From contig NZ_JAMQOQ010000007.1 in the NCBI RefSeq assembly GCF_031624635.1, positions 62,001 to 126,000 of the forward strand: a stretch of 64,000 bases of DNA, written 5' to 3'. Every line of letters starts with the position of its first letter. The stretch's first letter is position 1. Positions 6,311-62,131 of the stretch are shown piece after piece. The position numbers and the translations under genes were made by a program. Below the pieces are notes generated by a model, which was not told where the DNA came from, did no database searches, and saw only the letters and a program-made list of their open reading frames with translations. Origin of the DNA: Halogeometricum sp. S3BR5-2 (GTDB lineage: Archaea; Halobacteriota; Halobacteria; Halobacteriales; Haloferacaceae).

Positions 6311-6370
6311 AGCGATACATCGCTCTCTGTGGCGCTTTCTCCTCATCACTGTAAAAAAGAACCCGGATGG

Positions 6371-6979: not shown

Positions 6980-7562
6980 TTACACGAGCACAAGGGGCCT
7001 TGTAGAGTCTGTTTCTTATGGCGTATCTCTCGTATCTGGTTTTGTATCGTACCGTTATTATAAGCCATAAGTCCACATCGAGATCTATTCTACAGCATGA
7101 CGGACTCTAAACGCAAATCATTCCACCGAAAATATATTTTATCATTTGAAATCTGTATTTACAGACCTATTCATTGGAGAAGTGTCCGGACCGGCGAACG
7201 ACTTTGAGAGCCGAACGACCCACGCCGATTCGGTATTCGGTGGGATGGCCTGTCACTCAACGAGAGCTAGAACATCTCCGGCGAAACTAGGAACTTTGAG
7301 GGAAATTGATTCACGATTCCGAGTAGCGTGGCCTGTGATTACTTCCGGGATAGTGGCTCGAAGACTGGATGCGAAAATATGAGAACACAAACAACTACGG
7401 ATCGGAACAGAATGTGGAGATTAGACTCCGATACGTAGCTGGTACCCCTCTCAGTTCGTTCGTGTTACTGTGTTACCCATAGAACAACATCAATTTGTGG
7501 CGAGTTCCTCATTACTGAGAATCCTCCTGCGCTCTTTAGGGCAAGATGCTCAATCAAGAAGC
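6980..7562. other. Non-coding interval upstream of two divergent secreted-protein genes
   Basis: About 580 bp between the Tat protein gene and the halocyanin gene, presumably carrying both promoters. AT-rich stretches with TATA-like hexamers (TTATAA near 7058-7065) are present. A 78-residue frame at 7146-7382 on the plus strand has poor haloarchaeal character and I do not call it. No repeat structure was recognised. Confidence 0.45.
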
Positions 7563-8135
7563 ATGGAGCGCAGACGGTATTTAAAAACAGCCAGTGTCGT
7601 CGCCACAGGCGGTGTGGCAAGCCTCGCAGGATGCACCAGTTCTGGCACTGAGGGCGACAGCAGTGACTCAACGAGCAAATCGCAACAGACGACCAGTAGC
7701 TCTAATGAGACGACCGGGAACTCAAATACGGTGCTGATGGTCACCGAAGGAAGTCAGTATTACTTCGACCCCATCGGATTGTTCGTTGAAACGGGCGATA
7801 CCGTCTCGTTCAAGATTCGGAGCGGGAACCACTCCGCAACGGCGTATCAGAAAGGGAACGGTCCCGCTTCGGTGACCCGTATCCCGGACGGAGCACAAGC
7901 CTTTGATAGCGGAACTCTGAGCGAACGGGGGGCGACCTTCCAGCACACGTTCGAGACGACCGGGACGTTCGATTACTACTGTATCCCACACAAAACTCTG
8001 GGTATGGTCGGCCGAATAGTCGTTGGAAAACCAAGAGGTCCAGCTGAGGAAAACATGCCGCCAGACGGAAATGTGCCAAAAAGCGGAACAATCGTCGATA
8101 ACGGTCTGGTTTCCTACAGCGAATTTAGTAGGTAA
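7563..8135 (+). CDS. Halocyanin-like blue copper lipoprotein
   Basis: 190 residues from ATG 7563, chosen because it begins the Tat/lipobox signal (MERRRYLKTASVVATGGVASLAGC). A Ser/Thr-rich linker (about residues 20-58) leads to a cupredoxin domain. Likely type-1 copper ligands are His in SGNHSATAY, then Cys, His and Met in DYYCIPHKTLGM. It would be a lipid-anchored electron carrier on the outer face of the membrane, passing electrons to oxidases or other redox enzymes. It lies just upstream of an arylsulfotransferase-like gene with a 56 bp gap. All ligands are intact. Confidence 0.88.
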   Translation: MERRRYLKTASVVATGGVASLAGCTSSGTEGDSSDSTSKSQQTTSSSNETTGNSNTVLMVTEGSQYYFDPIGLFVETGDTVSFKIRSGNHSATAYQKGNGPASVTRIPDGAQAFDSGTLSERGATFQHTFETTGTFDYYCIPHKTLGMVGRIVVGKPRGPAEENMPPDGNVPKSGTIVDNGLVSYSEFSR

Positions 8136-12519: not shown

Positions 12520-13449
12520 TCATCCCTCGTGCCCGTGGCTCGTGCGGTTCGTCGACTTAGCCTCGACATCAGCCGCCCCGAGGAGTTCGACAGTCGCGTG
12601 ATCCACACCGGCCTCGGTGAGCTGTTCGTGTGCCTGTTGGCGGACCGTCTGCTGGTCTTCGAGCGTTTCGACGTCGTCTCCGAGACGAACGGTCGCGACG
12701 GTCAGCTGGCTGCACACCTGCCAGACGTGGAGGTCATCGACCCGTTCGATGCCGTCGATGGACAGCAGTTCATCCCGAAGTCGGTTCGTGTCGAGCGGAC
12801 TGCGCTGTAGCAGTATCGAGGTGCTCTCCCACAGCACCTTTCCGGCGGACCAGAGCACCAACACGGCGATGAGTACCGCCGCAATTGGATCTGCGATGGG
12901 CACCTTGAAGACCGCGATCGCAGCCGTTGAAACGATCACCGCGATAGATCCGCCCGCATCACCGAGAAGGTGGTAAAACGCCCCTCGTTCGTTGAGACTC
13001 ATCTCACCGCCCTGTAACACGTAAACGGACCCGAGGTTAACGAGTAACCCCCCGGTCGCGATAATCAGTGTCATCGTCGGGTCGATGCTCACTGGATCGA
13101 GGAACCGCTGGTACGACTCCCAGAGAATATAGCCGATCATCGGAACGAGCAGTATACCGTTCAAAAACGCAGCGGCGGGTTCGAGGCGGTGTAATCCATA
13201 CGACCACGTCTGTCCGCCACCGTACCGCTCTGCGGTGTAACTCGCGCTGAACGCCATCGCGTACGCGAGCATGTCGAACAGCATGTGTATCGCGTCGCTT
13301 ATCAGCGCTACCGACCCGAACAGGATTCCCCCGGCTAACTCGACGACGAATCCCAAGAAGTTGATGACTGCGACGATTGCGAGCGTTCTCGTACTCCCTC
13401 CTGAGGCGGATTCAAGAGCGTTCATCTCGTCGTGGTCGTGTCCAGACAT
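12520..13449 (-). CDS. Cation diffusion facilitator (CDF) metal exporter
   Basis: 309 residues with six membrane helices and a cytoplasmic C-terminal dimer domain (ERVDDLHVWQVCSQLTVATVRL). The metal-site patterns of the family are present: HxxxD in helix II (SDAIHMLFD) and in helix V (YHLLGDAGG). The N-terminus and C-terminus carry extra His (GHDHDEM, SHGHEG). CDF proteins exchange Zn(II), Cd(II) or Co(II) for protons and export them from the cytoplasm. It is the last gene of an operon with the P-type ATPase and a small membrane protein (6 bp gap), which indicates a metal-resistance unit. Confidence 0.92.
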   Translation of the reverse strand: MSGHDHDEMNALESASGGSTRTLAIVAVINFLGFVVELAGGILFGSVALISDAIHMLFDMLAYAMAFSASYTAERYGGGQTWSYGLHRLEPAAAFLNGILLVPMIGYILWESYQRFLDPVSIDPTMTLIIATGGLLVNLGSVYVLQGGEMSLNERGAFYHLLGDAGGSIAVIVSTAAIAVFKVPIADPIAAVLIAVLVLWSAGKVLWESTSILLQRSPLDTNRLRDELLSIDGIERVDDLHVWQVCSQLTVATVRLGDDVETLEDQQTVRQQAHEQLTEAGVDHATVELLGAADVEAKSTNRTSHGHEG

Positions 13450-13917: not shown

Positions 13918-16554
13918 CTATCGTTGAGGCGTCTCGGCCAATTGCTCGTCCGTGTTCTCCGGCTGGATGCGAGAAAGGCGCATGGCGTTCCCAGTCACGC
14001 CGACGGTCATCCCCGCGTCGCCCGCGAGGACGGCCAGCCAGATGGGAACGAGACCGAACGGGACCCCAACGGCGAGCGCCGCCTTGACTCCGAGACTTGC
14101 CCAGATGTTCTGTCGGATGACGCTGTTCGCGTCGTTTGCGAGTTCGTACAGGTACGGGAGTTTCGAGAGGTCGTCCGCCATGAGCGCGATGTCAGCGGTT
14201 TCGAGCGCGGTATCAGTACCGGCAGCGCCCATTGCGACGCCGACAGTGGCCGTCGCGAGCGCGGGTGCGTCGTTGATGCCGTCACCGACCATCGCGACGC
14301 CGTCGTACTCCTCGACGAATTCGTCTATTGCTGACACCTTCTCGTCCGGGAGCAGTTCGGCGCGGAATTCGTCGACACCGACCTGTTTGGCGATTGCCTG
14401 TGCGGTTCGCTCGTTGTCCCCCGTGAGCATCACGGTGCGCTTGACGCCGAGGTCCTTCAACCGAGCGATAGTCCGTTTTGCCTGCGGTCGGATTTCGTCC
14501 GCGACGGCGATGATGCCCTCCAGTTCGTCCTCCGTTCCGACGAGGATGACGGTCTTCCCCTCGGATTGGAGTTTCGGGACGGCGTCTTCGAGTAGGTCGA
14601 GGCAGTTGTGACGGTCGCAGAGTTGACGGGCGGCCTGGGTGACCACACCGCCGTCGGTCGTCGCGTGGACGTGCGAGAGGTCAAATCCGAGTTCCTCGAA
14701 GAGACCGGGCTTCCCGGCGAAGTGTGGCTTACCGTCGAGCGTCGCACGGACGCCCTTGCCGGTGATGCTCTCGAACTGGTCTATCTCGCGCCCTTCGACG
14801 CCAGCGTTGGTCGCTTCTGCGACGATGGCTTCGCCGATAGGGTGTTCGCTCCGCTGTTCGAGGCCGCGCGCGCAGTTCAGTACGTCTTCCTCGTTGTTCC
14901 CGTTCAGAGGGACGACGTCTGTCACAGCGAGTTCACCCTTGGTGAGCGTGCCCGTTTTGTCGAAGGCGACGACGTCGACAGCGCCCATCGCTTCGAGATG
15001 GTTTCCGCCCTTGATGAGGACGCCGTTCTTCGCGGCACTCGTGATACCCGAAACGACGGAGACAGGCGTGGAGATGACGAACGCACACGGACACGCGAGA
15101 ACCAAGAGCGTGAGACCGTAGACGACTGCGGTCGACCACGACGTGCCGAGAACGTACGGACTGCCGAGTGTGACGAGGATGGCAACTCCAACGACGACCG
15201 GTGTGTAGTACGCCGAGAACCGTTCGACGAACTGTTCACGTTCGGTCTTGTTGGACTGAGCGTCCTCGACCATCTCGACGATTCGCGAGAGCGTGTTGTC
15301 GCTCGCTTCGGAGGTGACCTGAACCTCGAGGTAGCCCTCCTCGTTGATCGTCCCGGCGTACACCTCGTCCCCGGTCGTCTTGTCGACGGGGACGCTCTCG
15401 CCGGTGATGGGCGCTTGATTGACCGCGCTCTCCCCGTCAGTGACTTCGCCGTCCATCGGTATCTTCTCACCGGGTTTGACCACCACGACGTCGCCGACAA
15501 CGACGTCGTCGACGGGGACGGTCACCTCCTCGCCGTCACGTTTGACGGTCGCCTCGTCGGGCGAGAGATCCATCAACTCCTGCAGCGAGTTGCGGGCGCG
15601 GTCCATCGAGTAGCGTTCGAGCAATTCGGCGACGCTGAAGAGGAACGCGAGGGTCGCAGCCTCGAAGTACAGCGCTTCGCCGAACGCGAGACTAGCGACC
15701 AGTGCGCCGACGATAGCGACGGACATCAGGAAGTCGATGTCGAGGTTCAGGTTTCGGGCCGAGTAGTACCCGTTTCGGAGTATCTCTTGGCCACCGACTG
15801 CGATAGCCACCAAGAAGAGGACGTCGGCGACGAACAATTCCCGACTGACGACGGTCGCCACTTCGGCGTTCTGTCCGACGAGAAAGAACTCGAACAACAA
15901 TCCGAGCGCGACGAATCCACCGCTGATCCATGTCTTAATCGCGCGGGTGTTCGTCCAGATGCTCTCTTCGGAGTCCTCGCTTCTGGAACCTGAGTGTCTC
16001 CCCGTCGTCGTGTCAGTCACCTCGTAGCCAGCACTCTCGATGGCGGCGACGATGTCCGACTCGCTGGTAGCGGACTCGTCGTATGTGATGGTCACCTTCC
16101 CCGTGGTAGGTTGAGTAGCGTACGTCGACACGCCGTCGACGCGTTCGAGGGCGTTTTCGATCTTCCCCGCGCAGGAGGGGCAGTCCATCTCCGGCACGGT
16201 GAACTTCGCTGTGATTTCCCCGTCGTCTTCCACGCGGTAGCCCGCCTTTTCTATGCGGCCGCTGATTGACGCTGGTGTCGTCTGCTCGGGGTCGTAGGAG
16301 ACGGTGAGCGTCCCGGTCGTAACCGCCGGGTCGACGCCGTTGATTCCGTCGAGTTTGCGGACGCTGTTTTCGACCTTTCCCGCGCAGGAGGGGCAGTCCA
16401 TCTCCGGTACAGAGAACTGCGCGACATCTCCTCGATCCATCGATTCTGACGTCGGCTCCGTCGGTCCGTGATCGTGATCGTGGTCATGGTCGTGATTGTG
16501 ATCATGCGACTGTGAATCTCCTGGTTCGTCTGGCTCACGATGCGGAGAGGTCAT
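13918..16554 (-). CDS. Heavy-metal P1B-type ATPase (Zn/Cd/Co class)
   Basis: 878 residues. A His/Asp-rich N-terminus (HDHNHDHDHDHDH) precedes two heavy-metal-associated domains, each with the motif MDCPSCAGK. Then come the membrane helices with the CPC metal site at residues 488-490 (ACPCAF), the phosphorylation site DKTGT (Asp about 532), the SEHPIGEA motif of P1B pumps and the hinge MVGDGINDAPALA. His-rich tails and CPC fit Zn(II)/Cd(II)/Pb(II)-type exporters better than Cu(I) pumps, although CPC occurs in both. First gene of a tight three-gene operon with a CDF exporter. A TATA-like element 25 bp upstream suggests a leaderless transcript. Confidence 0.93.
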   Translation of the reverse strand: MTSPHREPDEPGDSQSHDHNHDHDHDHDHGPTEPTSESMDRGDVAQFSVPEMDCPSCAGKVENSVRKLDGINGVDPAVTTGTLTVSYDPEQTTPASISGRIEKAGYRVEDDGEITAKFTVPEMDCPSCAGKIENALERVDGVSTYATQPTTGKVTITYDESATSESDIVAAIESAGYEVTDTTTGRHSGSRSEDSEESIWTNTRAIKTWISGGFVALGLLFEFFLVGQNAEVATVVSRELFVADVLFLVAIAVGGQEILRNGYYSARNLNLDIDFLMSVAIVGALVASLAFGEALYFEAATLAFLFSVAELLERYSMDRARNSLQELMDLSPDEATVKRDGEEVTVPVDDVVVGDVVVVKPGEKIPMDGEVTDGESAVNQAPITGESVPVDKTTGDEVYAGTINEEGYLEVQVTSEASDNTLSRIVEMVEDAQSNKTEREQFVERFSAYYTPVVVGVAILVTLGSPYVLGTSWSTAVVYGLTLLVLACPCAFVISTPVSVVSGITSAAKNGVLIKGGNHLEAMGAVDVVAFDKTGTLTKGELAVTDVVPLNGNNEEDVLNCARGLEQRSEHPIGEAIVAEATNAGVEGREIDQFESITGKGVRATLDGKPHFAGKPGLFEELGFDLSHVHATTDGGVVTQAARQLCDRHNCLDLLEDAVPKLQSEGKTVILVGTEDELEGIIAVADEIRPQAKRTIARLKDLGVKRTVMLTGDNERTAQAIAKQVGVDEFRAELLPDEKVSAIDEFVEEYDGVAMVGDGINDAPALATATVGVAMGAAGTDTALETADIALMADDLSKLPYLYELANDANSVIRQNIWASLGVKAALAVGVPFGLVPIWLAVLAGDAGMTVGVTGNAMRLSRIQPENTDEQLAETPQR

Positions 16555-17272: not shown

Positions 17273-18355
17273 TCACCGGGCTACCGAACCGACGGTACAT
17301 TTCGCTGGAGGCATGTCGAGAAACGCGGTCTCGTACCCGTCGTGACGGGCGAGTTGCGGAGGGGTCACCGTCTCGATCACGACCGAATCGCTGGCTTGTA
17401 ACTCCTCGACGGGAGCACGATAGTAGCATCCGATCTCGGGATCGATAGTTGCTCGAAGTTTCCGCTTCAGAATGGTCGTCTGTTTTCGGTTCACGGACCC
17501 CGTGAGTGCCATTCGAGGAAGCATGATACGATTGTACGGTGTTCGTGGAGAGACGAGTAGCGTAGGCTGGCCGTTCTTGCTGAATCGAGAGTCTCCGTCT
17601 ACCAGGCTGATGAGAAAAGACACGTCGTCTGAAGTTACTTCCCCGATCGACTGTCCCGGAAGTTCTTCTCTCGGGGGGACGCGAGGTGATGGAACGGATT
17701 TCATATCCATCAACTCCACCGTTCCTTTCGTACCCGCTTTCTCCCCCAACCGCCGAATCGGGAGGTTGTAGGTTTCGCTCGTGTCAAACGTAAAGCCAAC
17801 TGTTACTGACTGAGATTTCGTGAACCGCCCATCAAGTGCACCTGTCCGCTCCGTTTGAAGTGGCCCCGCGCTGATTGTGGCTCGGTAGTTCCCCTCTCCG
17901 TTTAGTGCGACGTTGTCGCCGTAGTGAAAGCCCATATTAGGGGAGATCATAGGCCATAGATTGGTATTCGTTACTTTACCGTCGCTATCTTCGATCGTCA
18001 CAGAGAGATCGATTGGAAGGATCGTATCGCTCTTTGCATCCCAAACGCTTGCCATCAGGTGAAGCGAGTCGTCGGACTGAACAACCACTTTCTCCTTCCT
18101 GGTTCCGGTGAGATTCCAGAATCGGTGCGGATACGAGTACATGAGGCCGACCCCCAACCCGTTTTTCGTGGCTGTACCGTACATACCCATCCCCTCCACG
18201 ATAGCCGGATAGTACACCGCATCGGGTTTATTCTTGACCTGAGGTGGATCCCGCCACGCTGACTGCGTCTCGAATCCGAGACGGCTGAGACACCCCGTTA
18301 ATCCGATGCAGCTCGCCAGTCCGGTCCCTCGTTTGAGAAACGACCTCCGTCTCAT
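17273..18355 (-). CDS. P19/Tp34-like iron-transport lipoprotein
   Basis: 360 residues from ATG 18355, chosen because it starts the signal (MRRRSFLKRGTGLASCIGLTGC); a start 96 bp further upstream would bury the signal. The mature protein shows the family signatures: GMGMYGTATKNGLGVGLMYS, YPHRFW, DSLHLMASVWD, MGFHYGDNVALNGEGNY, PRTPYNRIMLPRMALTGS and ARHDGYETAFLDM. P19-type proteins are periplasmic or extracytoplasmic Fe/Cu-binding partners of iron permeases. Met- and His-rich motifs are compatible with that, but the haloarchaeal group is poorly studied and may be known only as a DUF. Intact paralogue at 20378; frameshifted one at 5260. Confidence 0.7.
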   Translation of the reverse strand: MRRRSFLKRGTGLASCIGLTGCLSRLGFETQSAWRDPPQVKNKPDAVYYPAIVEGMGMYGTATKNGLGVGLMYSYPHRFWNLTGTRKEKVVVQSDDSLHLMASVWDAKSDTILPIDLSVTIEDSDGKVTNTNLWPMISPNMGFHYGDNVALNGEGNYRATISAGPLQTERTGALDGRFTKSQSVTVGFTFDTSETYNLPIRRLGEKAGTKGTVELMDMKSVPSPRVPPREELPGQSIGEVTSDDVSFLISLVDGDSRFSKNGQPTLLVSPRTPYNRIMLPRMALTGSVNRKQTTILKRKLRATIDPEIGCYYRAPVEELQASDSVVIETVTPPQLARHDGYETAFLDMPPAKCTVGSVAR

Positions 18356-18541
18356 ATCGATTACGTGTACCCATGTAAGGGAGAGGTTTCTGGTGTGGAT
18401 ACCGAAGCGGAACACCGCTGTAGACGACGCGGAAGTCGAGTTCTCGTGCACTGCTACTGGTTTGCAAAAGAGCTCCGAATGCTGAACCAGAACGATTTCA
18501 AAGACGCACTGAGTAGTTCCGTGTACCGGTCACCGATCGAA

Positions 18542-18808
18542 ATGTCACAGATACAAACAACCGTTCCAGAGGGTGAAACGCCCGCAGGCACGTGTGAGTA
18601 CTGCGGACATCCGTTCCCGACCACCGACCGTCTTGTGCTTCACAGAGGTAGAGAACATAGTCAGCGGCTTGACGACATCGACAAGGAGAAGTTCAAGTCC
18701 GCATTTACGGAAGAAGAAGACGCTCTCCGCAGTCTGCGTTTGAGAGCGCTCGCAATACTGGTCATCTTGTACTTCGGGTTGTTGAACGTCTATGCCGTCT
18801 TCGCCTGA
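18542..18808 (+). CDS. C2H2 zinc-finger protein with C-terminal membrane helix
   Basis: 88 residues from ATG 18542. A single classical finger, CEYCGHPFPTTDRLVLHRGREH, has two Cys and two His in C2H2 spacing. A charged linker (DDIDKEKFKSAFTEEEDA) leads to one C-terminal transmembrane segment (LRALAILVILYFGLLNVYAVF). Small zinc fingers tethered to the membrane recur beside oxidase and metal genes in haloarchaea. It overlaps the start of the next gene by 17 bases, so the two are translationally linked. Confidence 0.75.
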   Translation: MSQIQTTVPEGETPAGTCEYCGHPFPTTDRLVLHRGREHSQRLDDIDKEKFKSAFTEEEDALRSLRLRALAILVILYFGLLNVYAVFA

Positions 18809-20303
18809 TTCGACCTCCAGCGAACTGATCCATTCAGACGTGCGATCGGAACGCTGGTCGATGAGGGATAGATTGCGAGCGACTCTTTCAGCACCCCAAA
18901 TCAGGGTTGCTGTGCAGTGTCTGCTCTGGATATCCGCGCTGGTCCTGTTCGTTGACACCGCATCAGCGGGGAATGGCCTAACCCTCTCGAAGCAACCCAG
19001 AGACACACTCGCAGTTCCTCGATGGCTCTATCTCGCCACTGGGGGCGCCACTATCGGTGCGTCGGCTCTCCTCGCGAGTTTTGTGACCGATCGAGCGTTT
19101 ATCCGTTATCTTCACAACTGGTCGAAGACCCTCCCAACGATTGAGAGTTGGTGGCAACCAGTAGTCTGGATCGCACGTGGTCTCGGCGTCACCACCCTCG
19201 CTCTCACAGTATATCTCGGATACGTAGGTCCCCAACTCCCGACCTCAAGTCTCGCCATCTTGGTCACGTTCGCTGGAGTTCGTGCTGGCCTGCCCATCTT
19301 CACGTATCTTGTCGGAAATATTTGGCCAGTACTCAATCCGTGGCGGACCGTCGCATCCGTCCTCCCATCTGGATGGCTCGAATATCCAGGCTCGCTCAAG
19401 CGATGGCCGGCGGTTGTAGGGCTGTTGGGTCTCGTCTGGGTCGAAGTTATCTTTCCCGTCAGTACTGTCCCGGCAGTGCTCGCGACCGCAATTGTACTAT
19501 ACACGGCAGTCACGCTCGCCGGTGCGCTCGTGTTCGGCCCCGAACCGTGGTTCGGAAACGTTGACCCTCTCTCCGTACTCTTCCGATTTTACGGTGGCGT
19601 CTCTCCTCTCACACGACACACAGGAACCGTAGAGATGAAGCTCCCAGGAGGGGATCTCCAACACTCGGACGTCGTTGCTGATACCTCTGACATCGCATTC
19701 ATCATCGCACTCGTTTGGGAACTGACGTACAGCGGGTTCATCACGACGAGTGCTGGATCAACGACGATCAGGACCATCGTCGAACTCAACTTCCCTGGGT
19801 TCGTGAGTGCAGAGGTTCGTGCAGTCGCCGTATACACACTCTTGCTCCTCGCTGGATATCTCGTCTTTTTCGCCGCATACTGGTACGCTGGTCGCGTCTC
19901 ACGGCGCCGTACCGGCACCTACATCACTGCTCGAACGATCAGGTATCAGTTCGCGTCCCCACTCTTAGCGATCGCGGCAGGGTATCATCTGGCTCACTAC
20001 GCAGGGCTGTTCGTCTCTCTAAGTCCTGCGCTGGTACTCGCTCTCACATCACCGCTCTCTCCACCGTCGAATCCGCTGGTCCTCTCGCCACCAGGCTGGT
20101 TTGACGGATTCAACATTGCGTCTATCCTCGTCGGACATCTACTCGCCGTCTGGACGGCTCACACTCTGGGATACGACCTCTTCTCCAGCCGACTCGTTGC
20201 GGTCCGGAGCCAGTATCCGTTCGTTGCCGTCATGATCGGTTACACGGTCGTCAGCCTCTGGATTATCTCCCTTCCCGGTGCGATTCCTCCGTATCTATCC
20301 TGA
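18792..20303 (+). CDS. Polytopic membrane protein, about 12 helices
   Basis: 503 residues with many hydrophobic helices from residue 40 to the end. Conserved-looking loop motifs include NIWPVLNPWRTVASVLPSG, YPGSLKRWPAVVGLLGLVWV and EPWFGNVDPLSVLFRFYGG, with a polar outside loop VEMKLPGGDLQHSD. Similar motifs occur in actinobacterial membrane proteins of unknown role. Overlap with the zinc-finger gene and location between two P19-like genes suggest a role in transport of iron, copper or heme, but that is inference from context. Confidence 0.65.
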   Translation: MPSSPDSTSSELIHSDVRSERWSMRDRLRATLSAPQIRVAVQCLLWISALVLFVDTASAGNGLTLSKQPRDTLAVPRWLYLATGGATIGASALLASFVTDRAFIRYLHNWSKTLPTIESWWQPVVWIARGLGVTTLALTVYLGYVGPQLPTSSLAILVTFAGVRAGLPIFTYLVGNIWPVLNPWRTVASVLPSGWLEYPGSLKRWPAVVGLLGLVWVEVIFPVSTVPAVLATAIVLYTAVTLAGALVFGPEPWFGNVDPLSVLFRFYGGVSPLTRHTGTVEMKLPGGDLQHSDVVADTSDIAFIIALVWELTYSGFITTSAGSTTIRTIVELNFPGFVSAEVRAVAVYTLLLLAGYLVFFAAYWYAGRVSRRRTGTYITARTIRYQFASPLLAIAAGYHLAHYAGLFVSLSPALVLALTSPLSPPSNPLVLSPPGWFDGFNIASILVGHLLAVWTAHTLGYDLFSSRLVAVRSQYPFVAVMIGYTVVSLWIISLPGAIPPYLS

Positions 20304-20377
20304 GCACAACAGAATACATCTCACCGGAGAATTTGTGGGCGTGATCGAGACGCTTTAATTTCGGCTCAGTTCCGCCG

Positions 20378-21439
20378 TTAGAGCGTCAGCGTCATCGGTT
20401 TCATATCGACAAACGCAGTTTCGTACCCCTCGTGGCGAGAGGTTTGGGGTGGCGAATCGATAGTTATTGTGAACTCGTCGCCAGACTGCACGTCCGAGAC
20501 GACCGCGCCGTAGTGATAGCGCAGCTTGGGATCGATCGTCGACTGTAAGATTCCATCGAACACCGTGGATCCATCACGAGTTAACGTTCCCGAAACAGAC
20601 ATCATCGGGAGCATAGTTCGATTGTAGGGTGTCCGCGGTGACACGGCTAGATACTGCTGATTTCGATCTCCACCGAACCGCGATGCGTCTTCGAGTACCG
20701 TCACTACAAATTTTGCGTCCCCGCTCGTCGCCGTTCCACGGACATCGCCAGGAAGCGCATCGGGTTTCGGGACCTGAGAACTCGGCAACGTCTCCACATT
20801 CATCAGATCAACTGCGCCCCTCGTTCCTTCCTTGTCTGCAGGGATATCCGTATACGATATCTCTTCGAGTGTAGATTTTCTAAACTCAAACTCGAACGCG
20901 AATGAGACGTTTCCTTCGTTCCCTGACAGAGACCCCACCCGCCGAGTTGACGGACCGCCGACCCGTACTTTGACCGTATAAGAACCGTCTCCATTGAGTT
21001 GAGCGTTGTCACCGAAGTGGAACCCCATCGGTTGGGAGAGCATCGGCCACGGTGCGAACTGATCGACCGAGTTCCCATTTTGAGTGATGTAGACCTGGGG
21101 GTTGATATCGGGGGGAATGATTTCCGTTTCTGTCTCCCATACGACCGGCATCAAGTGAAGCGAATCCTCTGACTGGATGTCTACTTTTGAGATACCATCC
21201 GGCTTCATTAGCCAGAATCGGTGGGCGTACGAATAGGTGAGTGCACAGCTATAGCCGCCTTGAGTCTTCACGTTCGATGTTTTCATCCCCTCGTAGTGGC
21301 TCGGGAAGTAGACGGCATCTGGTCGATTTTCAGGGAGTGGCGGGGCCCGCGCGGACTGCGTCTGAAACAGCCCTGTGCATCCCGCGAGGCCGATTAAGGA
21401 CGTTCCTCCGAGGGTTCCGAGAACGTCACGACGACGCAT
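20378..21439 (-). CDS. P19/Tp34-like iron-transport lipoprotein, third copy
   Basis: 353 residues. Signal MRRRDVLGTLGGTSLIGLAGC is a Tat-type lipoprotein leader. Family motifs: CALTYSYAHRFW, DSLHLMPVVWE, MGFHFGDNAQLNGDGSY, PRTPYNRTMLPMMSVSG and TSRHEGYETAFVDMKPM. The start overlaps the end of the DyP-like peroxidase gene by 14 bases, so the peroxidase and this lipoprotein form one operon. EfeB-type DyP peroxidases work with iron-uptake lipoproteins and permeases in bacteria, which supports an iron-acquisition role here. Confidence 0.72.
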   Translation of the reverse strand: MRRRDVLGTLGGTSLIGLAGCTGLFQTQSARAPPLPENRPDAVYFPSHYEGMKTSNVKTQGGYSCALTYSYAHRFWLMKPDGISKVDIQSEDSLHLMPVVWETETEIIPPDINPQVYITQNGNSVDQFAPWPMLSQPMGFHFGDNAQLNGDGSYTVKVRVGGPSTRRVGSLSGNEGNVSFAFEFEFRKSTLEEISYTDIPADKEGTRGAVDLMNVETLPSSQVPKPDALPGDVRGTATSGDAKFVVTVLEDASRFGGDRNQQYLAVSPRTPYNRTMLPMMSVSGTLTRDGSTVFDGILQSTIDPKLRYHYGAVVSDVQSGDEFTITIDSPPQTSRHEGYETAFVDMKPMTLTL

Positions 21440-22730
21440 TGTCTACCCCTTGAGAATTCTCAGACGGAAGTACGGGCGGAAGTGCACGCAACGGCCGTGG
21501 TGGCACTAAGTAGTTACCGCGGTGCTCTGTCTGAACATACTGGAGAATCCCGTTATTGTTTCGTTGTCCAACCGCTGATTGTTCAACCACATCAGTCCCG
21601 TTCATCGCTTCCCGCGTCGCCACAAAATCACTAATTCCTCGTTGGAGCGCCAGAAAATGGAGGCCTGCCTGTCCGCCGTCGGTTGAATCAAAATCCCGCC
21701 GGAGGATAACTGGGCTGTTGTTTTCGCGGGCGGATGTCATCTTCTGAGAATGACCGACGACACCCATTTCACGAGCGGTCTCAGTCGCGGGTCCGCAGTC
21801 CTCGACCTGACTACTCGTTCCGAGGTTATCTCCTGGTCCTTCCACGACATCGTTTTCGGCGTGATACGGACAGAACATCTTCGCCTCGCGCTGCCAGCGG
21901 TCGTCTTGGTTGTACCACTGATTCAGGTTGAGCTGGAGTTTCGAGATGTGCTGTGTTGTTCCTCCCGCGAACGGCCCCGACTGGATCGTAACTCGGTCCT
22001 CACTCGCCTGATTCTTTTCGAATCCAGATTTGAAACCCATGAATAGAGGCGCATCGTCCGGAACTTTGTCGGCAGGGATCCCATCGGCATCGTCAGCGTT
22101 TTCGGCCGGAAGTCCATCACCAACGAATCCGGTTCGACGGTCGACGACTTCAAACATGTCGGTCAGCGCGGCGTCCGGTTGTTCGATACCGTTGAGGGTT
22201 CCTTTTTTCCCCTTAAGCGCTTCCTCTGCCCCGAGGATGACCGGTGCATTGTTGCTCGCGAGATGGACGACAGCATCGGGCGTATCCAATTCAGGGTCTT
22301 CGAACGAAGCAAGCGCTTTCGGCGCCGGGAGGTCAACGCTTTCGGGGAGTGCCGAATCGAACCGACTGAAGTACGCCGGAGAGTAGCTCATCGTAAGTAA
22401 GAGACCGGTTCCACTCCGTTCGTACGCTCGTTCGACACCACGAAGCGCCTTCTCAACGCTTTTCCTGTCTTTCTCGACTGGCGGACCGCTACGGCTGTAC
22501 TTCAGGTATAGCAGGACGTGATGGCGCGGGGGGACGGTATTTCCCTGGTCGTCTCGTGGGAGCACTTCGTTCCACGCATGTTGACGTCGAGGAAGCGACG
22601 ATAGGTTCTCCGGCCCCGTCGGAACATCTACTGATCCTCGTCCTAGGCACGCACTGAGTGCTGCCGCCCCACCGATAGCGACGGCTGACTTCATAAAATC
22701 CCTCCGCGGGACGCCTCGTCTATCAGCCAT
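21426..22730 (-). CDS. Tat-exported DyP-like (EfeB-type) peroxidase
   Basis: 434 residues with a Tat-lipoprotein leader (VPRRDFMKSAVAIGGAAALSAC). The middle region carries ferredoxin-like-fold segments (HHVLLYLKYSRSGPPVEKDR, AVVHLASNNAPVILGAEEAL). The C-terminal part resembles the end of DyP/EfeB enzymes (SPVILRRDFDSTDGGQAGLHFLALQRG then ISDFVATREAM). DyP enzymes bind heme and use peroxide; EfeB members act in iron or heme acquisition outside the cell. The heme-ligand region is divergent, so enzymatic activity is uncertain. Upstream of and overlapping a P19-like gene, which fits an Efe-like iron system. Confidence 0.7.
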   Translation of the reverse strand: MADRRGVPRRDFMKSAVAIGGAAALSACLGRGSVDVPTGPENLSSLPRRQHAWNEVLPRDDQGNTVPPRHHVLLYLKYSRSGPPVEKDRKSVEKALRGVERAYERSGTGLLLTMSYSPAYFSRFDSALPESVDLPAPKALASFEDPELDTPDAVVHLASNNAPVILGAEEALKGKKGTLNGIEQPDAALTDMFEVVDRRTGFVGDGLPAENADDADGIPADKVPDDAPLFMGFKSGFEKNQASEDRVTIQSGPFAGGTTQHISKLQLNLNQWYNQDDRWQREAKMFCPYHAENDVVEGPGDNLGTSSQVEDCGPATETAREMGVVGHSQKMTSARENNSPVILRRDFDSTDGGQAGLHFLALQRGISDFVATREAMNGTDVVEQSAVGQRNNNGILQYVQTEHRGNYLVPPRPLRALPPVLPSENSQGVDNASS

Positions 22731-22922: not shown

Positions 22923-24014
22923 TCAGTTAATCGTTGCCGAAGGAGATGCAGGATTCGGTTCGGGAACCGAGCCACCGGCCGATTGGAGCAGGCTACCGAG
23001 CAACATCATGATACTTAGCGCGAAGAACACGCCGCCGACGGGCGACGTCGGAATCATGAACGACCAGTAGATCGGTGTCGCAGCCGTGCCGAAGAGGACA
23101 CTCAGTACGCCATAGAACGCGGGTGCACAGCAACAACATGCGGTCGCACCGGACGTCGCGAGCGATCCGGAGAGCATCTTCCTCCCGGCGACCGACCCGC
23201 TGTTTGTCCATTGCTGCGTCACGACCGCTACGTTGAGGCCGACGAGACTACCCAGCACTCCCATGACCAAGACCGTTCCAACGGAGATATATCCAGTGAA
23301 GGGGATCGACGGAAAGTACCACTCAACGGCTGGCCACACCACGAGTGGACTGGCGACTTCGTACGGGATGACGAACGCCTCCGTCGGGACATTGACACCG
23401 TCATCGGGGTTGAAACTCATCGTTCCCCCGGAGAACGCGAAGAAGACGCTCATCAACAGACCCGCCGCGATGCCGAAGAGCTTCGGTTTCGTCTGCAGGC
23501 GGATACTCTGGATGATCCCCCGAGCGTCCGACCAGACGATGGCTGTGAGAACGGCGGGAAGCGAGAGAGCGAGGAGGTAACCTAGTGGATTCGTGTATCC
23601 CTGATTCGGCATCACCACCGGGTAGGCAATCCAACTTCCGAGTATCACGCACAGGACCGCGTACAGTGGTTTCGTCGGCCACTTGAGTCGCACCGTAGCG
23701 AACCCACCTACTGCTAAGAGTGTACTCGCTACGAGGCTCAGTGGCGGATATATATCGACGAGTTTCGGCGGCGTCGTTCCGACAACTTGGAGTTCGACGA
23801 GACCGATTCCACTGAAGGCGACCGAGACGACCCCGCCGGCGAGGATGACCGCAGCGGCACGAAACGATACGATACCTCGACGAGCGGAAGCGACTGATCC
23901 TGCTATTCCACCGATTCCGACGATCAGTAAGACGAACAGAAGCCAGTGTGGCGTCCCCGCGTGAGTGGTTCCTGAATGTGCTGCAGCGGGTGTAGAGAAC
24001 GCTCCAACCGCCAC
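22923..24014 (-). CDS. Polytopic membrane protein with a Cys-rich motif and disrupted signal peptide
   Basis: 363 residues from GTG 24014. About nine hydrophobic helices. A notable cluster GATACCCCAPAFYGVLS lies near residue 305. Reading upstream in frame gives a natural signal peptide (ITALGLALVAVGAFSTPAAAHSG) preceded by ATG at 24053, but codon 5 is TGA (24039-24041). The original start is therefore separated by a nonsense codon, and the called product lacks half of its signal. Family unknown to me. Position between the DyP operon and the ABC pair suggests metal or redox work. Confidence 0.6.
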   Translation of the reverse strand: MAVGAFSTPAAAHSGTTHAGTPHWLLFVLLIVGIGGIAGSVASARRGIVSFRAAAVILAGGVVSVAFSGIGLVELQVVGTTPPKLVDIYPPLSLVASTLLAVGGFATVRLKWPTKPLYAVLCVILGSWIAYPVVMPNQGYTNPLGYLLALSLPAVLTAIVWSDARGIIQSIRLQTKPKLFGIAAGLLMSVFFAFSGGTMSFNPDDGVNVPTEAFVIPYEVASPLVVWPAVEWYFPSIPFTGYISVGTVLVMGVLGSLVGLNVAVVTQQWTNSGSVAGRKMLSGSLATSGATACCCCAPAFYGVLSVLFGTAATPIYWSFMIPTSPVGGVFFALSIMMLLGSLLQSAGGSVPEPNPASPSATIN

Positions 24015-24147: not shown

Positions 24148-24966
24148 TCACCTGTCAACTGAGCTCCAGACAAAGAAGGCGGTGGCGGTAAGCGAAAGGA
24201 GCGTCCACGCCAGAAGTACGAACGTCGACATGAACGTCTCGACCAACGAGACGTTCGCTGACGCAGTCACCGGAGCGACGGTCAGAGAGAGGACGAGATT
24301 CCGGTAGGCCCCGTTGGGACTCAGGAGCGCCAGGGCGGCGCTTGCTTCCCCACCACCTACTCCGAGCCCGACAACGGCGGCAATGTCGAAGCCGAACACG
24401 ACGACCAAAAATGCGACGAGCGTCGCGACGATGCCGCGGCGCGCGTCTCGTGCGACGGCCGAAATGAGGTGAAAGACGGCCAGCGTGACGGCACCGAGAA
24501 CGGCCGTCAATACAACGAACCGAAGGTACAGCACCGGTGAGTCCAGACCGGTCGACTGCGGAAGAAACGTCGCAGCGCGACCGAACAGCGGAACGGCGAA
24601 GACGAGTACTACGAGCGGGAGCACGATGCTGGCGAGGAGTGCGAGGAGCCGGGCCAGATACACTCCGAGAACGTACTCGCCGCGAGTCACCGGGTACGTC
24701 TGGTGGATATCGAGCTCATCGCGTTCGCGTTCGCCCACGATCGCGGGATACCCGAACGCGCCGGCGAACAGCGGAACTAAGAGTTCGACCGGAGTCAAAA
24801 GCGAAAGGACGAGAGGAACGTATCCGCTGACACCGCTCGTTAACGCGACGGCGACCACGAGCAGGAAGAATCCCACCGATAGGAGGAGGTAGGTCTTGGT
24901 TCGCCAGACTGTCACGAGTTCCCGCCCGAACACCACTCGGATTCGGTCGGCCCACGAGTACGTCAC
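24148..24966 (-). CDS. nosY: ABC-2 type permease, NosY-like
   Basis: 272 residues with six hydrophobic segments and the NosY-type landmark IVGERERDELDIHQTYPVTRGEYVLGVYL between helices 2 and 3. In nitrous-oxide reductase maturation, NosY forms the membrane part of an ABC transporter with NosF and works with NosD. Its start overlaps the end of the ATPase gene by four bases, so both are co-translated. Assignment to Nos rests mainly on the adjacent NosD-type gene; generic ABC-2 export is the alternative. Confidence 0.75.
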   Translation of the reverse strand: MTYSWADRIRVVFGRELVTVWRTKTYLLLSVGFFLLVVAVALTSGVSGYVPLVLSLLTPVELLVPLFAGAFGYPAIVGERERDELDIHQTYPVTRGEYVLGVYLARLLALLASIVLPLVVLVFAVPLFGRAATFLPQSTGLDSPVLYLRFVVLTAVLGAVTLAVFHLISAVARDARRGIVATLVAFLVVVFGFDIAAVVGLGVGGGEASAALALLSPNGAYRNLVLSLTVAPVTASANVSLVETFMSTFVLLAWTLLSLTATAFFVWSSVDR

Positions 24967-25703
24967 GACTCACCTCGCGTCCCGGTTTGAACTGCCGGTC
25001 CGTCCGGAATCGAATCGAGGAATGCGGCCGTCAGCGAGTCGTTTGGTCCAGCGTCAATGAGTTCACGCGGCGTCCCCGCTCGACGAACCGTCCCGCTATC
25101 GAGGAGCACGACGTAGTCCGTCCGAGTGGCTCCCGCGAGGTCGTGTGAACTGAGTACGACTGTGGTCTCCTCGCTGGCGATGTCACCGACGATGTCGAAG
25201 ACGTGCTCTCGCATTCGGGGGTCGAGCCCCGAGGTCGGTTCGTCGAGGACGACCACAGGCGGATCCCCGAGAAGGCTCTGTGCGATGCCGAGCAGTCGAC
25301 GCATCCCGCCGGACAGTTGTCCGACCCGTCGGTCACGAACGTCGAGGAGGCCGACTTGTTCCATCGACGCTTCCACGTCGACGCTTGCCTTGAGGAGATC
25401 ACCGTAGTACGTGAGCGTCTCATCGACCGAGAACTGTGTTCGGAAGCGAGGGTCCTGCGGGAGGTATCCGATCGGTCGCTCCGTTTCGATTGGGACTCGA
25501 CGACTTCCGCCATCGGATCCGAGAACACCGGCAACGACGCGTAACAGCGTCGTTTTTCCCGACCCGTTCGGACCGACGATCGCCGTCACCTCGTCTGTGG
25601 CGAATTCCAGAGAGATACCGTCGAGAACGGTCAGATCTCCGAACGAGCGGGTGATGTCTTCCAGCTGTACAATCACCTCTTTACTGTCCTCGGAGCCACG
25701 CAT
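24963..25703 (-). CDS. nosF: ABC transporter ATPase, NosF-like
   Basis: 246 residues from ATG 25703 (MRGSEDSKEVIVQLED); longer upstream starts would overlap the divergent promoter region. Walker A GPNGSGKTT, Q-loop in GYLPQDPRFR, signature QLSGGMRRLLGIAQSL, Walker B VVVLDEPTSGLDP and the switch His in VVLSSHDLAG are all intact. Forms the transporter with the overlapping NosY-like permease and probably energises maturation of a copper enzyme together with the divergently encoded NosD-type protein. Confidence 0.85.
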   Translation of the reverse strand: MRGSEDSKEVIVQLEDITRSFGDLTVLDGISLEFATDEVTAIVGPNGSGKTTLLRVVAGVLGSDGGSRRVPIETERPIGYLPQDPRFRTQFSVDETLTYYGDLLKASVDVEASMEQVGLLDVRDRRVGQLSGGMRRLLGIAQSLLGDPPVVVLDEPTSGLDPRMREHVFDIVGDIASEETTVVLSSHDLAGATRTDYVVLLDSGTVRRAGTPRELIDAGPNDSLTAAFLDSIPDGPAVQTGTRGES

Positions 25704-25797
25704 ACAGGTCCGTCTCTCTGCTGGTGTGAAATGGTTGTCGGCACGCACTGCAACCCTGACGAAGGAGTTTTGACTACCACGTGCATAACTCAAACTG

Positions 25798-27753
25798 ATG
25801 CGGACCCGTCTCGCGATTCTCGGGCTTGTGGTCGTCCTCGTAGTTGGTAGCGTCCCGTTTGCTGTTGGAGTCTCCCCGGATCGGAAGGCCGGTGCTGTCG
25901 ACTTCGAGGACACCGTCAGCGTCGGAATCTCTGAGGGCGTCGTACGAGAAGCCCAGCGGTCGTCGCTCGTGCTTCCGAAAGCCCAAGTCTTCTACTCTCA
26001 GTATCGGTACCCCGTCGGCTACTACGGTATCACCTCCCTCCTGACCGACCTGCAGACAGGGTCTGAACGGGGTCTCGGCCGTCCGCTCCAGATTTACGTC
26101 ACAGACTTCTCCGGTGAACCGATTCAACTCGACTCGGACGGCACGCTTCGACTGTCAAACGCGCGGAAAGCAGGCTGGGTGCGCGCGTCTGAAGCGTTCT
26201 TCGTCGTCGGTAGCCGAGCCCGCGTTCCGACGCGTGACTCCGTTGCTGTTCCCTTCTCGACCCGAACCGACGCTGCAGCGTTCGTATCCAAGTACGGCGG
26301 ACGAGTCGTCCGGTGGGACGACGTACGAACCCGAGAGGAGGATTCAATCGGACACACGACTGAGGAATGGAAACAGATCGTAGACGAACGAGAGGCACGG
26401 ACAGATTCGACCGTGACCTCACGACGGACGTTACTCGACCGGCCGGTCTCCGTCGTCGTCGGCGAGGACGCGCCGACGCTCACCGCTGCCCTGAGGGATG
26501 CCCCGCCGAACACGAGTATCCGCGTCCCGGCCGGAACGTACAACGTCTCCAACGTCACCGTGAGTAAGCCGGTAACGATTCGAGGAGCGGGACAGAACCG
26601 AACGCACCTCGTCGGTGACAGGACGGGGACTGTGATGACCATGACGGCGCCGCGAACGGCCGTCGCGAATCTCAGTCTCTCCGGCGTCGGCCCCGCTCGG
26701 AGCGGTAACAACGTCACGGCCGGCGCCGTCACCGTCGATAAGACGTCGTGGAACTACAACATGCGAAAGGTCCACGGATACGGCGACGCCGCGGTCGTCT
26801 TCGATACCGCGGGAGAATCCTTCGTCTCCCGAGTCCGGATCAACACCACGTCGAACGGGATTATTGCCCGCGACAGTCCAAACGTGACCATCTCGAATCT
26901 CACGTTGTACGGCACGAAACGATGGGACGAGGGATTCCTCGGTGTCGCGGCTATCGGTTCGTCGGTCGTGGTGCAGGACTCGGCCTTCTACGGCGGGAAA
27001 GTCGGCGTCTTCGCCCTCGACGTGGACGATCTCGTCGTTCGCGACTCGCGGATGGAGGGCATGATGCTCGGTGTGTTCAACCTCTACGGCCGGAATCTGT
27101 TGATCAGTAACAACCGAGTCGAAGACACCGGCTACGGTATCTACGTCGAGATGCGGTCCTCGGAGACGGCCGTCGTCGGTAACTCAGTGCGGCGGAGCGG
27201 GAACGGCGTTATCGTCGCCGGAACTGAAAACTACGTCTCGGGCAACGTCCTGACGCAGAACCGCGCCGGTCTTCTCGTCGAAGGACACTACTCGCTGTAT
27301 CGCCGGAACGTCCTCGCGTACAACCGCATCGGACTCAGGAGTCTCACGCTGCTCCCGACGAATACCGTCACGGACAACGACGTGGTGCGAAACGGGAAAC
27401 CGGTCACGACTTCGGCGTACGATATCGTCCACGTGTGGCGCGGGAACTACTGGTCGAGCGCACCCGGTGTGAGACGAACCCCGAGTGGGAGTCTCGTCCG
27501 GTCGTTCCGTCCGACCGGGTCGGTAGACCGCGCTGTCGGTCGCGTACCGTACGCGAACACCGTTGCCCACTCTCCGACGGTAACGGTCTTACGGCAACTC
27601 CAGCAGTTCGTCCCAGGACTTCGCAAAGGGGGCGTCGTGGACCCTGCTCCGGCGGCCGACCCGATTCGTGACGACGTCGTGAAGCGAGTCCAGGAGACGT
27701 ACAATCGAACGGGTAAGAGCGAGGATGACGATTCGTGGGACTATCGTTCGTGA
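25798..27753 (+). CDS. nosD: NosL-like domain fused to NosD-type beta-helix protein
   Basis: 651 residues. The signal peptide is LGLVVVLVVGSVPFAVG. Residues about 35-180 resemble NosL (ITSLLTDLQTGSERGLG, LQIYVTDFSGEPIQL, VRASEAFFVVGSRARVPT, AFVSKYGGRVVRWDDV) but lack the usual copper motif with Cys-Gly-Met. Residues about 215-560 form a right-handed parallel beta-helix of the NosD/CASH type with PAGTYNVSNVTVSKPVTIRG and repeated N-x-V rungs. NosD and NosL help deliver copper and sulfur to N2O reductase. It is divergent from the NosF/NosY pair by 94 bp. No nosZ is in this window, so the client enzyme is unknown. Confidence 0.82.
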   Translation: MRTRLAILGLVVVLVVGSVPFAVGVSPDRKAGAVDFEDTVSVGISEGVVREAQRSSLVLPKAQVFYSQYRYPVGYYGITSLLTDLQTGSERGLGRPLQIYVTDFSGEPIQLDSDGTLRLSNARKAGWVRASEAFFVVGSRARVPTRDSVAVPFSTRTDAAAFVSKYGGRVVRWDDVRTREEDSIGHTTEEWKQIVDEREARTDSTVTSRRTLLDRPVSVVVGEDAPTLTAALRDAPPNTSIRVPAGTYNVSNVTVSKPVTIRGAGQNRTHLVGDRTGTVMTMTAPRTAVANLSLSGVGPARSGNNVTAGAVTVDKTSWNYNMRKVHGYGDAAVVFDTAGESFVSRVRINTTSNGIIARDSPNVTISNLTLYGTKRWDEGFLGVAAIGSSVVVQDSAFYGGKVGVFALDVDDLVVRDSRMEGMMLGVFNLYGRNLLISNNRVEDTGYGIYVEMRSSETAVVGNSVRRSGNGVIVAGTENYVSGNVLTQNRAGLLVEGHYSLYRRNVLAYNRIGLRSLTLLPTNTVTDNDVVRNGKPVTTSAYDIVHVWRGNYWSSAPGVRRTPSGSLVRSFRPTGSVDRAVGRVPYANTVAHSPTVTVLRQLQQFVPGLRKGGVVDPAPAADPIRDDVVKRVQETYNRTGKSEDDDSWDYRS

Positions 27754-31241: not shown

Positions 31242-33533
31242 TCATTCTGAGACGTGAACGAGCGATGTCTGCAGACGCCCGCTCAGCATTTTGAATGTAG
31301 CCGCGAGTCCGGTGCCATACGCAAGGTGGGCAACGAACGCCACTAGAATGTAGCCGACGAGTTCCCACCCGGACTGGCCGCTGTAGAACGCCACGAAAAA
31401 GCCCGGCAGCATCACCACAGCGAACACGAGGCCCGTCCTGATAAGGGGTTCTCCCGGCAGGAAGTCCGCGAAGGTGACGAACAGGAGCGCCCACGTGGTC
31501 ATGCCGCCGCCGAGGAAGATGAGGTAGCCGATCGGCGGATTCCCCTGCACGCCGACGAGCTCAGCCAGTTCAGCGAACGCCGCCAGTTGGAAGACGCCGA
31601 GGAGAGACCCGACGTAGAGGACGGCCGACATGAGCATCATGCCGACGAAGCCGGCGACGGCGCCGACGACGACGTCGCGGCCGACGCCCGAGAGATCCTC
31701 GAACGCCTTCGGACTGCCCGTATCCGCCTCGTCCTTCTGGTCGCCGACCATCTGGCTCTCCGCGGCGGCCCGCGTTTCCTCAGGCGGGGGGCTGGTGACG
31801 CCGTACTTCTCCGCGAGGCGCGCCTCGAACGCCTGCCACTCGCGGGTGAACTGCTGGGTCTTCTTCAGGTCCCATACGTCGGCGTCACGGACGATGTCGC
31901 CGAACCACAGCGAATGCAGCATGTTGTACACCCACAAGAGGACACTGAAGCCGATAATATATGCCCCGATAGTAGCCACGTCATTGAGAAATTGGAACTT
32001 CGGTGGGTAGGAGGCGAACCGCCGGGGCATCCCAAGGGCGCCAAGTATCAGGAACGCCATGAACGTAACGAACACACCGACGGATGTGAGGACAGCTTGG
32101 AGGCGCGCCAGACGTTGGTTGTACATCCGTTCGGTGATGATGGGGAACCAGTAGTAGGAGGCAGCGAACATCTGGAACGGGATGATCGCCATCAGTATCA
32201 TGTGGAAGTGTCCGACGACGTAGTAGGTATCCTGATACATTACGTCGATGGGGATAGAGGCGAGGAAGACGCCTGTAATTCCCCCGATGACGAACAGGCT
32301 GAGCCCCCCGGCGGAGAACAGCATCGGTGCGGTCAACCGGATGTTCCCCTTCCACATCGTCGTTAGCCAGTTGAACACCTTGATGGCGCTGGGGACGGCG
32401 ATGGCGATGGAGACGATCATGAAGGAAGTGAGAATTCGCGGATCCATCCCCGTTGTGAACATGTGGTGCGCCCAGACGCCGAACGACAGCACCCCGATGG
32501 CGAGCGTCGAGTAGACGACGAACTTGAACCCGAATAGCTTCCGCCCCGAGAACTTCGGGAGGATGGTGCTCATCAACCCCGTCGCGGGGAGGAAGATGAT
32601 GTACACCTCTGGGTGGCCGAAAAACCAGAAGAGGTTTTGATACAGTATTGACCCGCCTGCCTCCACAGCGTAAAAGGAGGTACCGAAGTTGCGGTCAAGG
32701 AGCAACATGAGGAGGGCGCTCCCGAGCAGGGGGAACGCAAAGAGGATTATGCCGCTCGTTGTCAGCATCGACCACGTGAAGATATCGAGGTCACCGATGT
32801 CGACGTCCTCACCACGTTTCATGAATATAGTGACGATGAAATTTACCGCCCCCATCATCGTCGACAGCCCGCTTAAATGTAATCCAAGTAGCATAAAATC
32901 TATCTGTGGATTGGCTAATTGCGTCGACAGCGGGGTGTAGAGTGTCCATCCCGTTGCTGGTGGAGCGAGAGTGTACAAAAGCTGGAGCATTGATCGAGGC
33001 AGCCCGAGGCCAAGGATCCGTGCGAGGACTTCGGTGAGGAGGCCACCGCGGACGAGGAGTAACGAGGGAGGGAGGAGCCAGAAGGCGATGGCGTTGATGC
33101 GGGGGAACGCCAGGTCGTCGGCGCCGACGAACAACGGAAGGAAGTAGTTGGCCATGCCGAAGAACACCGGGGTGACGAAGAAGAACAGCATCGTCAGCCC
33201 ATGGGTGGTGAACAGCGCGTTGTACGTCTCTTCGGACCACACGTCGACGGCAGGCGTCAGCAGTTCCGTCCGAATCATCATTGCGTCGACGCCGCCCCAC
33301 AGGGCCGCCGCAGTCCCGAACACGAGGTACATGAGACCGATGTCCTTGTGGTCGACGGTCGTCATCCACCGGAGAAGGTTCTGTTTCTTCTCGCGTTCCT
33401 CCGTCTCTTCACCTTGGACGTGTCCACCGTCCGCGAAAACGATTCGAGAGAAATCTCGGAATGAGCCGTATCGTGCCCGGAGGATCACGACAGAGAGAAC
33501 GATTACCGCGAGTACGTATGGTATGATGCTCAT
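31242..33533 (-). CDS. coxA: Cytochrome c oxidase subunit I with C-terminal membrane extension
   Basis: 763 residues. The heme-copper oxidase core spans about residues 50-600 with its metal ligands: His in TTHGLTML (low-spin heme), GHPEVYI with the cross-linking His-Tyr pair, WAHHMFTTG (CuB histidines), and VVGHFHMIL (heme a3 and heme a). A cytoplasmic linker (residues about 600-645) leads to a further four-helix extension (VVGAVAGFVGMMLMSAVLYV to the C-terminus) typical of some haloarchaeal subunits. It reduces O2 and pumps protons. No subunit II gene is adjacent, so subunits must come from elsewhere or the locus is a relic. Confidence 0.92.
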   Translation of the reverse strand: MSIIPYVLAVIVLSVVILRARYGSFRDFSRIVFADGGHVQGEETEEREKKQNLLRWMTTVDHKDIGLMYLVFGTAAALWGGVDAMMIRTELLTPAVDVWSEETYNALFTTHGLTMLFFFVTPVFFGMANYFLPLFVGADDLAFPRINAIAFWLLPPSLLLVRGGLLTEVLARILGLGLPRSMLQLLYTLAPPATGWTLYTPLSTQLANPQIDFMLLGLHLSGLSTMMGAVNFIVTIFMKRGEDVDIGDLDIFTWSMLTTSGIILFAFPLLGSALLMLLLDRNFGTSFYAVEAGGSILYQNLFWFFGHPEVYIIFLPATGLMSTILPKFSGRKLFGFKFVVYSTLAIGVLSFGVWAHHMFTTGMDPRILTSFMIVSIAIAVPSAIKVFNWLTTMWKGNIRLTAPMLFSAGGLSLFVIGGITGVFLASIPIDVMYQDTYYVVGHFHMILMAIIPFQMFAASYYWFPIITERMYNQRLARLQAVLTSVGVFVTFMAFLILGALGMPRRFASYPPKFQFLNDVATIGAYIIGFSVLLWVYNMLHSLWFGDIVRDADVWDLKKTQQFTREWQAFEARLAEKYGVTSPPPEETRAAAESQMVGDQKDEADTGSPKAFEDLSGVGRDVVVGAVAGFVGMMLMSAVLYVGSLLGVFQLAAFAELAELVGVQGNPPIGYLIFLGGGMTTWALLFVTFADFLPGEPLIRTGLVFAVVMLPGFFVAFYSGQSGWELVGYILVAFVAHLAYGTGLAATFKMLSGRLQTSLVHVSE

Positions 33534-62014: not shown

Positions 62015-62131
62015 TGCGCTGCCGGGCTTTCGCCATAGAGTAAACCCCCTGGTTGCTGTCCTACTGGGCGTTTGTTTGCCCCAGAGTGGCTGAGGGGCGT
62101 CCCGAAGAACGCATCGTCCCTCGTGAACATC

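Follow-up and report, generated by a model that had tools for sequence, protein, structure and literature searches.

What does a NosDFY-type machine do in an archaeon that lacks the enzyme for which such machines are named? To our knowledge, N2O reductase (NosZ) is the one enzyme in connection with which NosDFY has been described, and the machine takes its name from it. The question is posed by a gene (25798..27753, plus strand; 651 aa) in the 64,000-nucleotide stretch of Halogeometricum sp. S3BR5-2 DNA that we analysed (hereinafter the window), which a preliminary description had read as a NosL-NosD fusion. Profile searches bear out this architecture: the Pfam NosL model PF05573 matches residues 60-178 (profile positions 23-128; 54.5 bits against a cut-off of 24, E=2e-14) and the NosD model PF05048 matches residues 390-554 (60.3 bits against a cut-off of 23.6, E=2.3e-16), with the stricter NCBIfam NosD model TIGR04247 scoring 143.3 bits, below its cut-off of 300. 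Both halves also match solved structures, namely NosL 2hpu (E=6.7e-7) and NosD 7o0y (E=3.3e-10). An AlphaFold2 model made from 23 fusions (mean pLDDT 71.6) predicts a small N-terminal domain, a long helix (residues 188-214, assigned with DSSP; 26359..26439, plus strand) and a right-handed β-helix; among solved structures it resembles NosD 7o0y_A most closely (Z=34.7, rmsd 4.1, 337 aligned, residues 227-634), with other β-helix proteins ranking behind it. The helix thus lies between the NosL-like domain (25975..26331, plus strand) and the NosD β-helix (residues ~215-550; 26440..27447, plus strand). Neither a CxM nor a CxxC motif occurs anywhere in the 651-residue protein, as had been noticed for the NosL-like domain.

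Divergent from the fusion lie genes for a NosF-like ABC ATPase (24963..25703, minus strand; PF00005, with Walker A, signature and Walker B motifs in the translation) and a NosY-like ABC-2 permease (24148..24966, minus strand; PF12679, E=2.7e-14), which upholds the proposed NosDFY-like set. The open frame of the ATPase extends to 25913 and its likely start is at 25703; this most likely start leaves 94 intergenic bases between fusion and ATPase (25704..25797), presumably a shared control region. The fusion and the F-Y pair stand head to head in all mapped loci of the subfamily to which the window gene belongs (see below), whereas canonical haloarchaeal units mostly have them in tandem order.

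The preliminary description had found no nosZ nearby and had named a nosZ just outside the window, in the same cluster, as the case that would overturn it. The window is part of a 153-kb contig in a 4.66-Mb genome assembled in 22 contigs and 99.9% complete. As the NosZ model we used TIGR04246, which splits true NosZ (E<1e-150) from matches to the CuA domain only, in place of PF18764, which had no match in any control genome. In the whole genome there is no NosZ, the best match (E=4.9e-10) covering the CuA part only; because the model gives nothing but CuA-domain matches genome-wide, a nosZ just beyond the window does not occur. True NosZ is likewise missing from the five genomes of the window's genus, and is present at E<1e-150 in 20 of 99 related genomes. 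The window genome also yielded no separate NosL, and neither it nor the related genome G004 has a CbaA match that would indicate a ba3 oxidase.

The wider haloarchaeal family provides the frame in which these absences can be read. The Cu(I) chaperone NosL carries a CxM copper motif and an N-terminal lipobox cysteine (PMC6530538). An alignment of 63 haloarchaeal fusions, which share signatures such as FYSQYxYVVGYxG, contains no protein with CxM or CxxC (0/63); the missing copper motif is thus real in the window gene and, contrary to the emphasis first placed on it, not unusual. Separate NosL genes usually lie near the fusion, and 52 of the 56 gene copies counted encode CxxCxM, many with a lipobox, so that the ordinary unit consists of NosL, the fusion, F and Y, with the fused NosL-like domain resembling a partner that accompanies the true chaperone without a metal of its own. 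The fusion architecture itself is not new, since 'NosL/NosD' is already the name given to such a protein in one public plasmid record; we found neither the fusion nor its connection with oxidases treated in the literature covered, which lay mostly outside subscription journals.

Of the 99 genomes, 45 carry the fusion and 20 carry NosZ, with no significant association between the two (p=0.21). The fusion instead goes with separate NosL (41/45 genomes with the fusion vs 4/54 without), with ba3-type oxidase subunit I (35/45 vs 12/54; p=3e-8) and with SCO1/SenC (38/45 vs 15/54; p=2e-8). As the genomes are related, the genus-level table weighs more; there the counts for ba3 are 21/7/6/20 (p=3e-4), and NosZ gives p=0.36. 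The distance between fusion and SCO1 is 3.4-12.2 kb in 10 genomes, and CbaA falls within 12 kb of the fusion in 5; canonical neighbourhoods further contain CopA, a DsbD-like membrane protein and COX2, the neighbour genes having been chosen by a codon-position score that misses some, including the window's own ATPase. Twelve genomes have a fusion as well as NosZ, and in these the two are always either on different contigs or separated by more than 280 kb; NosZ-linked NosD forms a separate branch of the tree, NosZ being accompanied by its own NosD. Ten fusion-bearing genomes lack ba3. The canonical family most likely loads copper for CuA/ba3 oxidases, and for this family the suggestion that a NosDFY set without N2O reductase serves another copper protein is well supported by the linkage to ba3 oxidase and SCO1. 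In eight Natrialbaceae genomes, two canonical fusions are separated by ~5-7 kb, and SCO1 and NosL genes occupy the interval or adjoin the pair; one copy in Halobiforma nitratireducens is split. In another group (L097, L099, L100, L101 and L102), the canonical fusion has a constant neighbourhood of porAB, methylmalonyl-CoA mutase and acyl-CoA synthetase genes, with no obvious copper link.

For the window gene itself the same suggestion is weaker, because its genome has neither ba3 oxidase nor NosL and the protein has lost otherwise invariant His/Met residues. In a tree of the NosD part, the gene falls into a clade of its own (100% SH-aLRT) on a long stem, together with plasmid copies from Halorarius, Halostella and Halobacterium; the subfamily is often plasmid-borne. 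A wider search of 392 genomes gave 15 distinct, residue-checked members (16 rows, as the H. noricense rows L086 and G196 are one sequence). Nine genomes have the window type as their sole fusion, and none of them has a separate NosL (0/9); in four other subfamily genomes, NosL adjoins a second, canonical fusion, the two units being neighbours in G134. A tie between the subfamily as a whole and ba3 oxidase was considered and rejected, with CbaA missing from the window genome, G004 and eight further subfamily genomes. In five Halobacterium genomes that carry the subfamily type, NosZ is present, either encoded on a separate contig or ~823 kb away, and a role of the subfamily in its maturation there is unlikely; two Halobacterium genomes (G158 and G196) have NosZ and lack a separate NosL.

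The residue changes set the subfamily apart. Positions 427, 429 and 451 (27076..27150, plus strand) are F, L and E in the window protein and H, M and M in 54 canonical and two sister fusions, eight NosZ-linked archaeal NosDs and the seven annotated bacterial NosDs that formed our bacterial comparison set, the Pseudomonas stutzeri counterparts being H207, M209 and M231 of the 7o0y chain. All 15 subfamily members have them replaced, by F, by L/F/V and by E/H, respectively. The subfamily has in turn acquired residues of its own: H326 (26773..26775, plus strand) is invariant in it and Tyr in canonical fusions, M423 (27064..27066, plus strand) is invariant in it and nearly always Arg elsewhere, and H545 is present in all members but one, which has Gln. 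M422 was dropped from this set, as it is common in sister sequences too. The seven members first aligned share an acidic C-terminal motif, G..D.D.WD[YF], and six of the seven subfamily fusions counted are free of cysteine. Positions 407, 429 and 451, spaced 22 residues apart, are predicted by the model to lie on equivalent strands of successive β-helix turns, which matches the expectation for one surface cluster. Close pairs have dN/dS of 0.12-0.18 (0.15 for the window gene and its G004 relative, with few changes; 0.18 for the Halostella type; 0.12 for Halobacterium), and all subfamily ORFs checked for decay are intact. The subfamily protein is thus kept under purifying selection even though its presumed copper route has been lost. 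G004 also holds, ~30 kb from its full copy, a C-terminal piece of a second fusion (G004:C7:37660-38016) that is 72% identical to residues 531-651.

We consider the best explanation, with a probability of about one in two, to be a modified metal- or cofactor-handling job of a NosDFY-type complex with a rebuilt site that works without NosL. The machine probably serves a new purpose in the window organism, since NosZ and NosL are missing and the presumed copper-binding residues are lost, yet the machine is conserved. More tentatively, the Cu(I) route would have been abandoned and the site rebuilt for another metal or another form of copper, from a parent that was itself an unrecognised assembly system for archaeal ba3-type oxidases. 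In bacterial NosDFY, ATP hydrolysis by F-Y drives changes in the external β-helix. By analogy, the fusion and its two divergent partners may form one ATP-driven complex, with the ATPase and permease at the membrane, the β-helix outside and a built-in NosL-like module, in which hydrolysis by the F-Y pair would drive corresponding changes of the β-helix. In the canonical haloarchaeal system, Cu(I) would go from NosL to the His/Met cluster and from there, through the complex, to an oxidase partner. The window subfamily would then have split from this parent family, lost NosL and replaced the His/Met cluster on the β-helix, with H326, M423 and E/H451 as candidates for a new ligand set, here inside a copper-handling island, and the metal-free NosL-like domain as a putative docking or entry module. 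With no NosL and a different set of residues, the complex may handle another metal or cofactor, or may obtain its copper from another donor. The domains, the gene layout, the absence of NosZ and NosL, the replaced residues, the purifying selection and the separate clade are observed, whereas we infer copper binding at the lost positions, metal binding at the new ones, the direction of transport and the client. Three observations count against this explanation: several subfamily loci have no metal-related neighbours; the copper-related neighbours are consistent with a continued copper role; and in one genome (G075) the His/Met residues are retained although a separate NosL is missing, so that the loss of NosL and that of His/Met are not strictly tied.

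The neighbourhood of the window gene, a copper-type island shared with Halorarius and Halobacterium plasmids, counts in favour of this explanation and also bears on the alternatives. Within ~20 kb of it are a CopA-type P-type ATPase with two HMA domains (13918..16554, minus strand), a CDF cation transporter (12520..13449, minus strand), a halocyanin (7470..8135, plus strand), three P19-like genes, a Tat-type Dyp-like protein and COX1. CopA, CDF and halocyanin genes recur near the fusion on the plasmids of Halorarius litoreus and H. noricense, alongside two small regulator-like genes and a CPBP protease, the CopA copy being 81-84% identical on the former and 78% in the latter. Two of the P19-like genes (Iron_transport/DUF7350) flank a gene for a 503-aa membrane protein (17273..21439), and a P19-like gene and the 503-residue protein are also found near the fusion in H. 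noricense and one further Halobacterium. Other subfamily loci lack these genes, and none of them is therefore an obligatory partner.

Several further features of the region deserve mention in their own right. The three P19-like genes, each combining Iron_transport and DUF7350, fall within 16 kb (5393-6787, 17273-18451 and 20378-21439), and one such gene directly follows the fusion in H. noricense. The last of the three adjoins a gene for a Tat-signal DUF7405 protein with a weak Dyp-type peroxidase match (21426-22730, minus strand), a pair that recalls EfeB-type iron uptake. A membrane protein (22923-24014, minus strand) that contains a CCCC stretch (TACCCCAPAFYG) and matches no Pfam family has ~30% identical relatives in two Halobacterium loci, and two arylsulfotransferase-like genes (8192-9589 and 10620-11942) are paralleled by three near the fusion on the Halorarius litoreus plasmid. 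The window also contains genes for a phage-type integrase (435-1526), a VirB4/TraG-like ATPase (39669-41876) and an extra TFIIB (62072-63058); the integrase, the VirB4/TraG-like gene and the plasmid location of the relatives suggest that the contig is a plasmid or integrated element.

Among the alternatives, the one that survives best, though we give it clearly less weight than a rebuilt site, is that copper is still delivered through other ligands to a cuproprotein of the island, either the halocyanin or COX1 (31242-33533, minus strand; CtaD-like, with a fused DUF6789 tail), with a P19-like or other protein as donor. Genes for halocyanin and the CopA-type ATPase, and P19-like genes, do come up repeatedly close to subfamily fusions (in the window, Halorarius litoreus and Halobacterium), and H326 and M423 could make another copper site; however, the conserved presumed ligands and NosL are gone, most other subfamily loci have no halocyanin or COX1 nearby, and the window's contig carries no COX2, the genome's five COX2 matches lying on other contigs. 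As clients, the halocyanin and the oxidase put forward in the preliminary description are less well supported, neither being a constant partner across the subfamily. A role as part of a metal-resistance island, ridding the cell surface of copper or another metal present in excess, strikes us as unlikely: the CopA, CDF and small regulator-like genes are close by and recur on two other plasmids, but the fusion does not form one operon with CopA, resistance genes are missing at many subfamily loci, and the canonical relatives are linked to oxidases rather than to resistance alone.

Transfer of sulfur species is a role once proposed for NosDFY. We think it somewhat less likely still that the subfamily moves such a non-metal group, or helps to assemble a bd oxidase or a sulfur enzyme. 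The unit on H. hubeiense pSTJ002 is surrounded by cydAB and sulfur-transfer genes, cydAB lies ~12 kb from the unit in Halorarius, and the loss of the presumed Cu(I) ligand positions would fit; yet this linkage is confined to two subfamily loci and the window has no such genes. Finally, a decaying plasmid leftover, as the lost ligand positions, the lost NosL and the second-copy fragment in G004 might suggest, is ruled out for practical purposes by the dN/dS values and intact ORFs, with the subfamily-specific invariant residues and the conserved C-terminal motif likewise speaking against it.

We regard NosDFY in haloarchaea as a common system that follows oxidase genes instead of N2O reductase, which makes the copper assembly of archaeal oxidases directly testable. 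The 15 distinct subfamily sequences amount to a natural replacement set that could reveal the copper-carrying residues of NosD, and could also show what of NosD stays useful without H427, M429 and M451. In PMC9240420, citing Zumft and Kroneck, Haloferax volcanii is described as having nosFY and no nosZ; a NosZ-independent haloarchaeal NosDFY is a possible explanation.

Set against known systems, the window locus resembles the NosZ-linked haloarchaeal NosDs in the NosD β-helix, with 26-31% identity in the matched parts, but those have no NosL-like domain, lie beside nosZ, form a separate branch and keep H/M/M. With P. stutzeri NosDFY(L) (7o0y, 7osf) it has in common the β-helical NosD, an ABC ATPase, an ABC-2 permease and a NosL-like domain; unlike there, this domain is fused and without CxM, a separate NosL and NosZ are absent, and where the 7o0y chain has H207, M209 and M231, the window protein has F, L and E. 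The canonical units (e.g., H. hubeiense pSTJ001 and a Halobaculum marinum plasmid) differ from it in their CxxCxM NosL, retained H/M/M, tandem layout and association with ba3 oxidase and SCO1, yet share with it both the fusion architecture and the partners, at 38-47% identity over most of the length.
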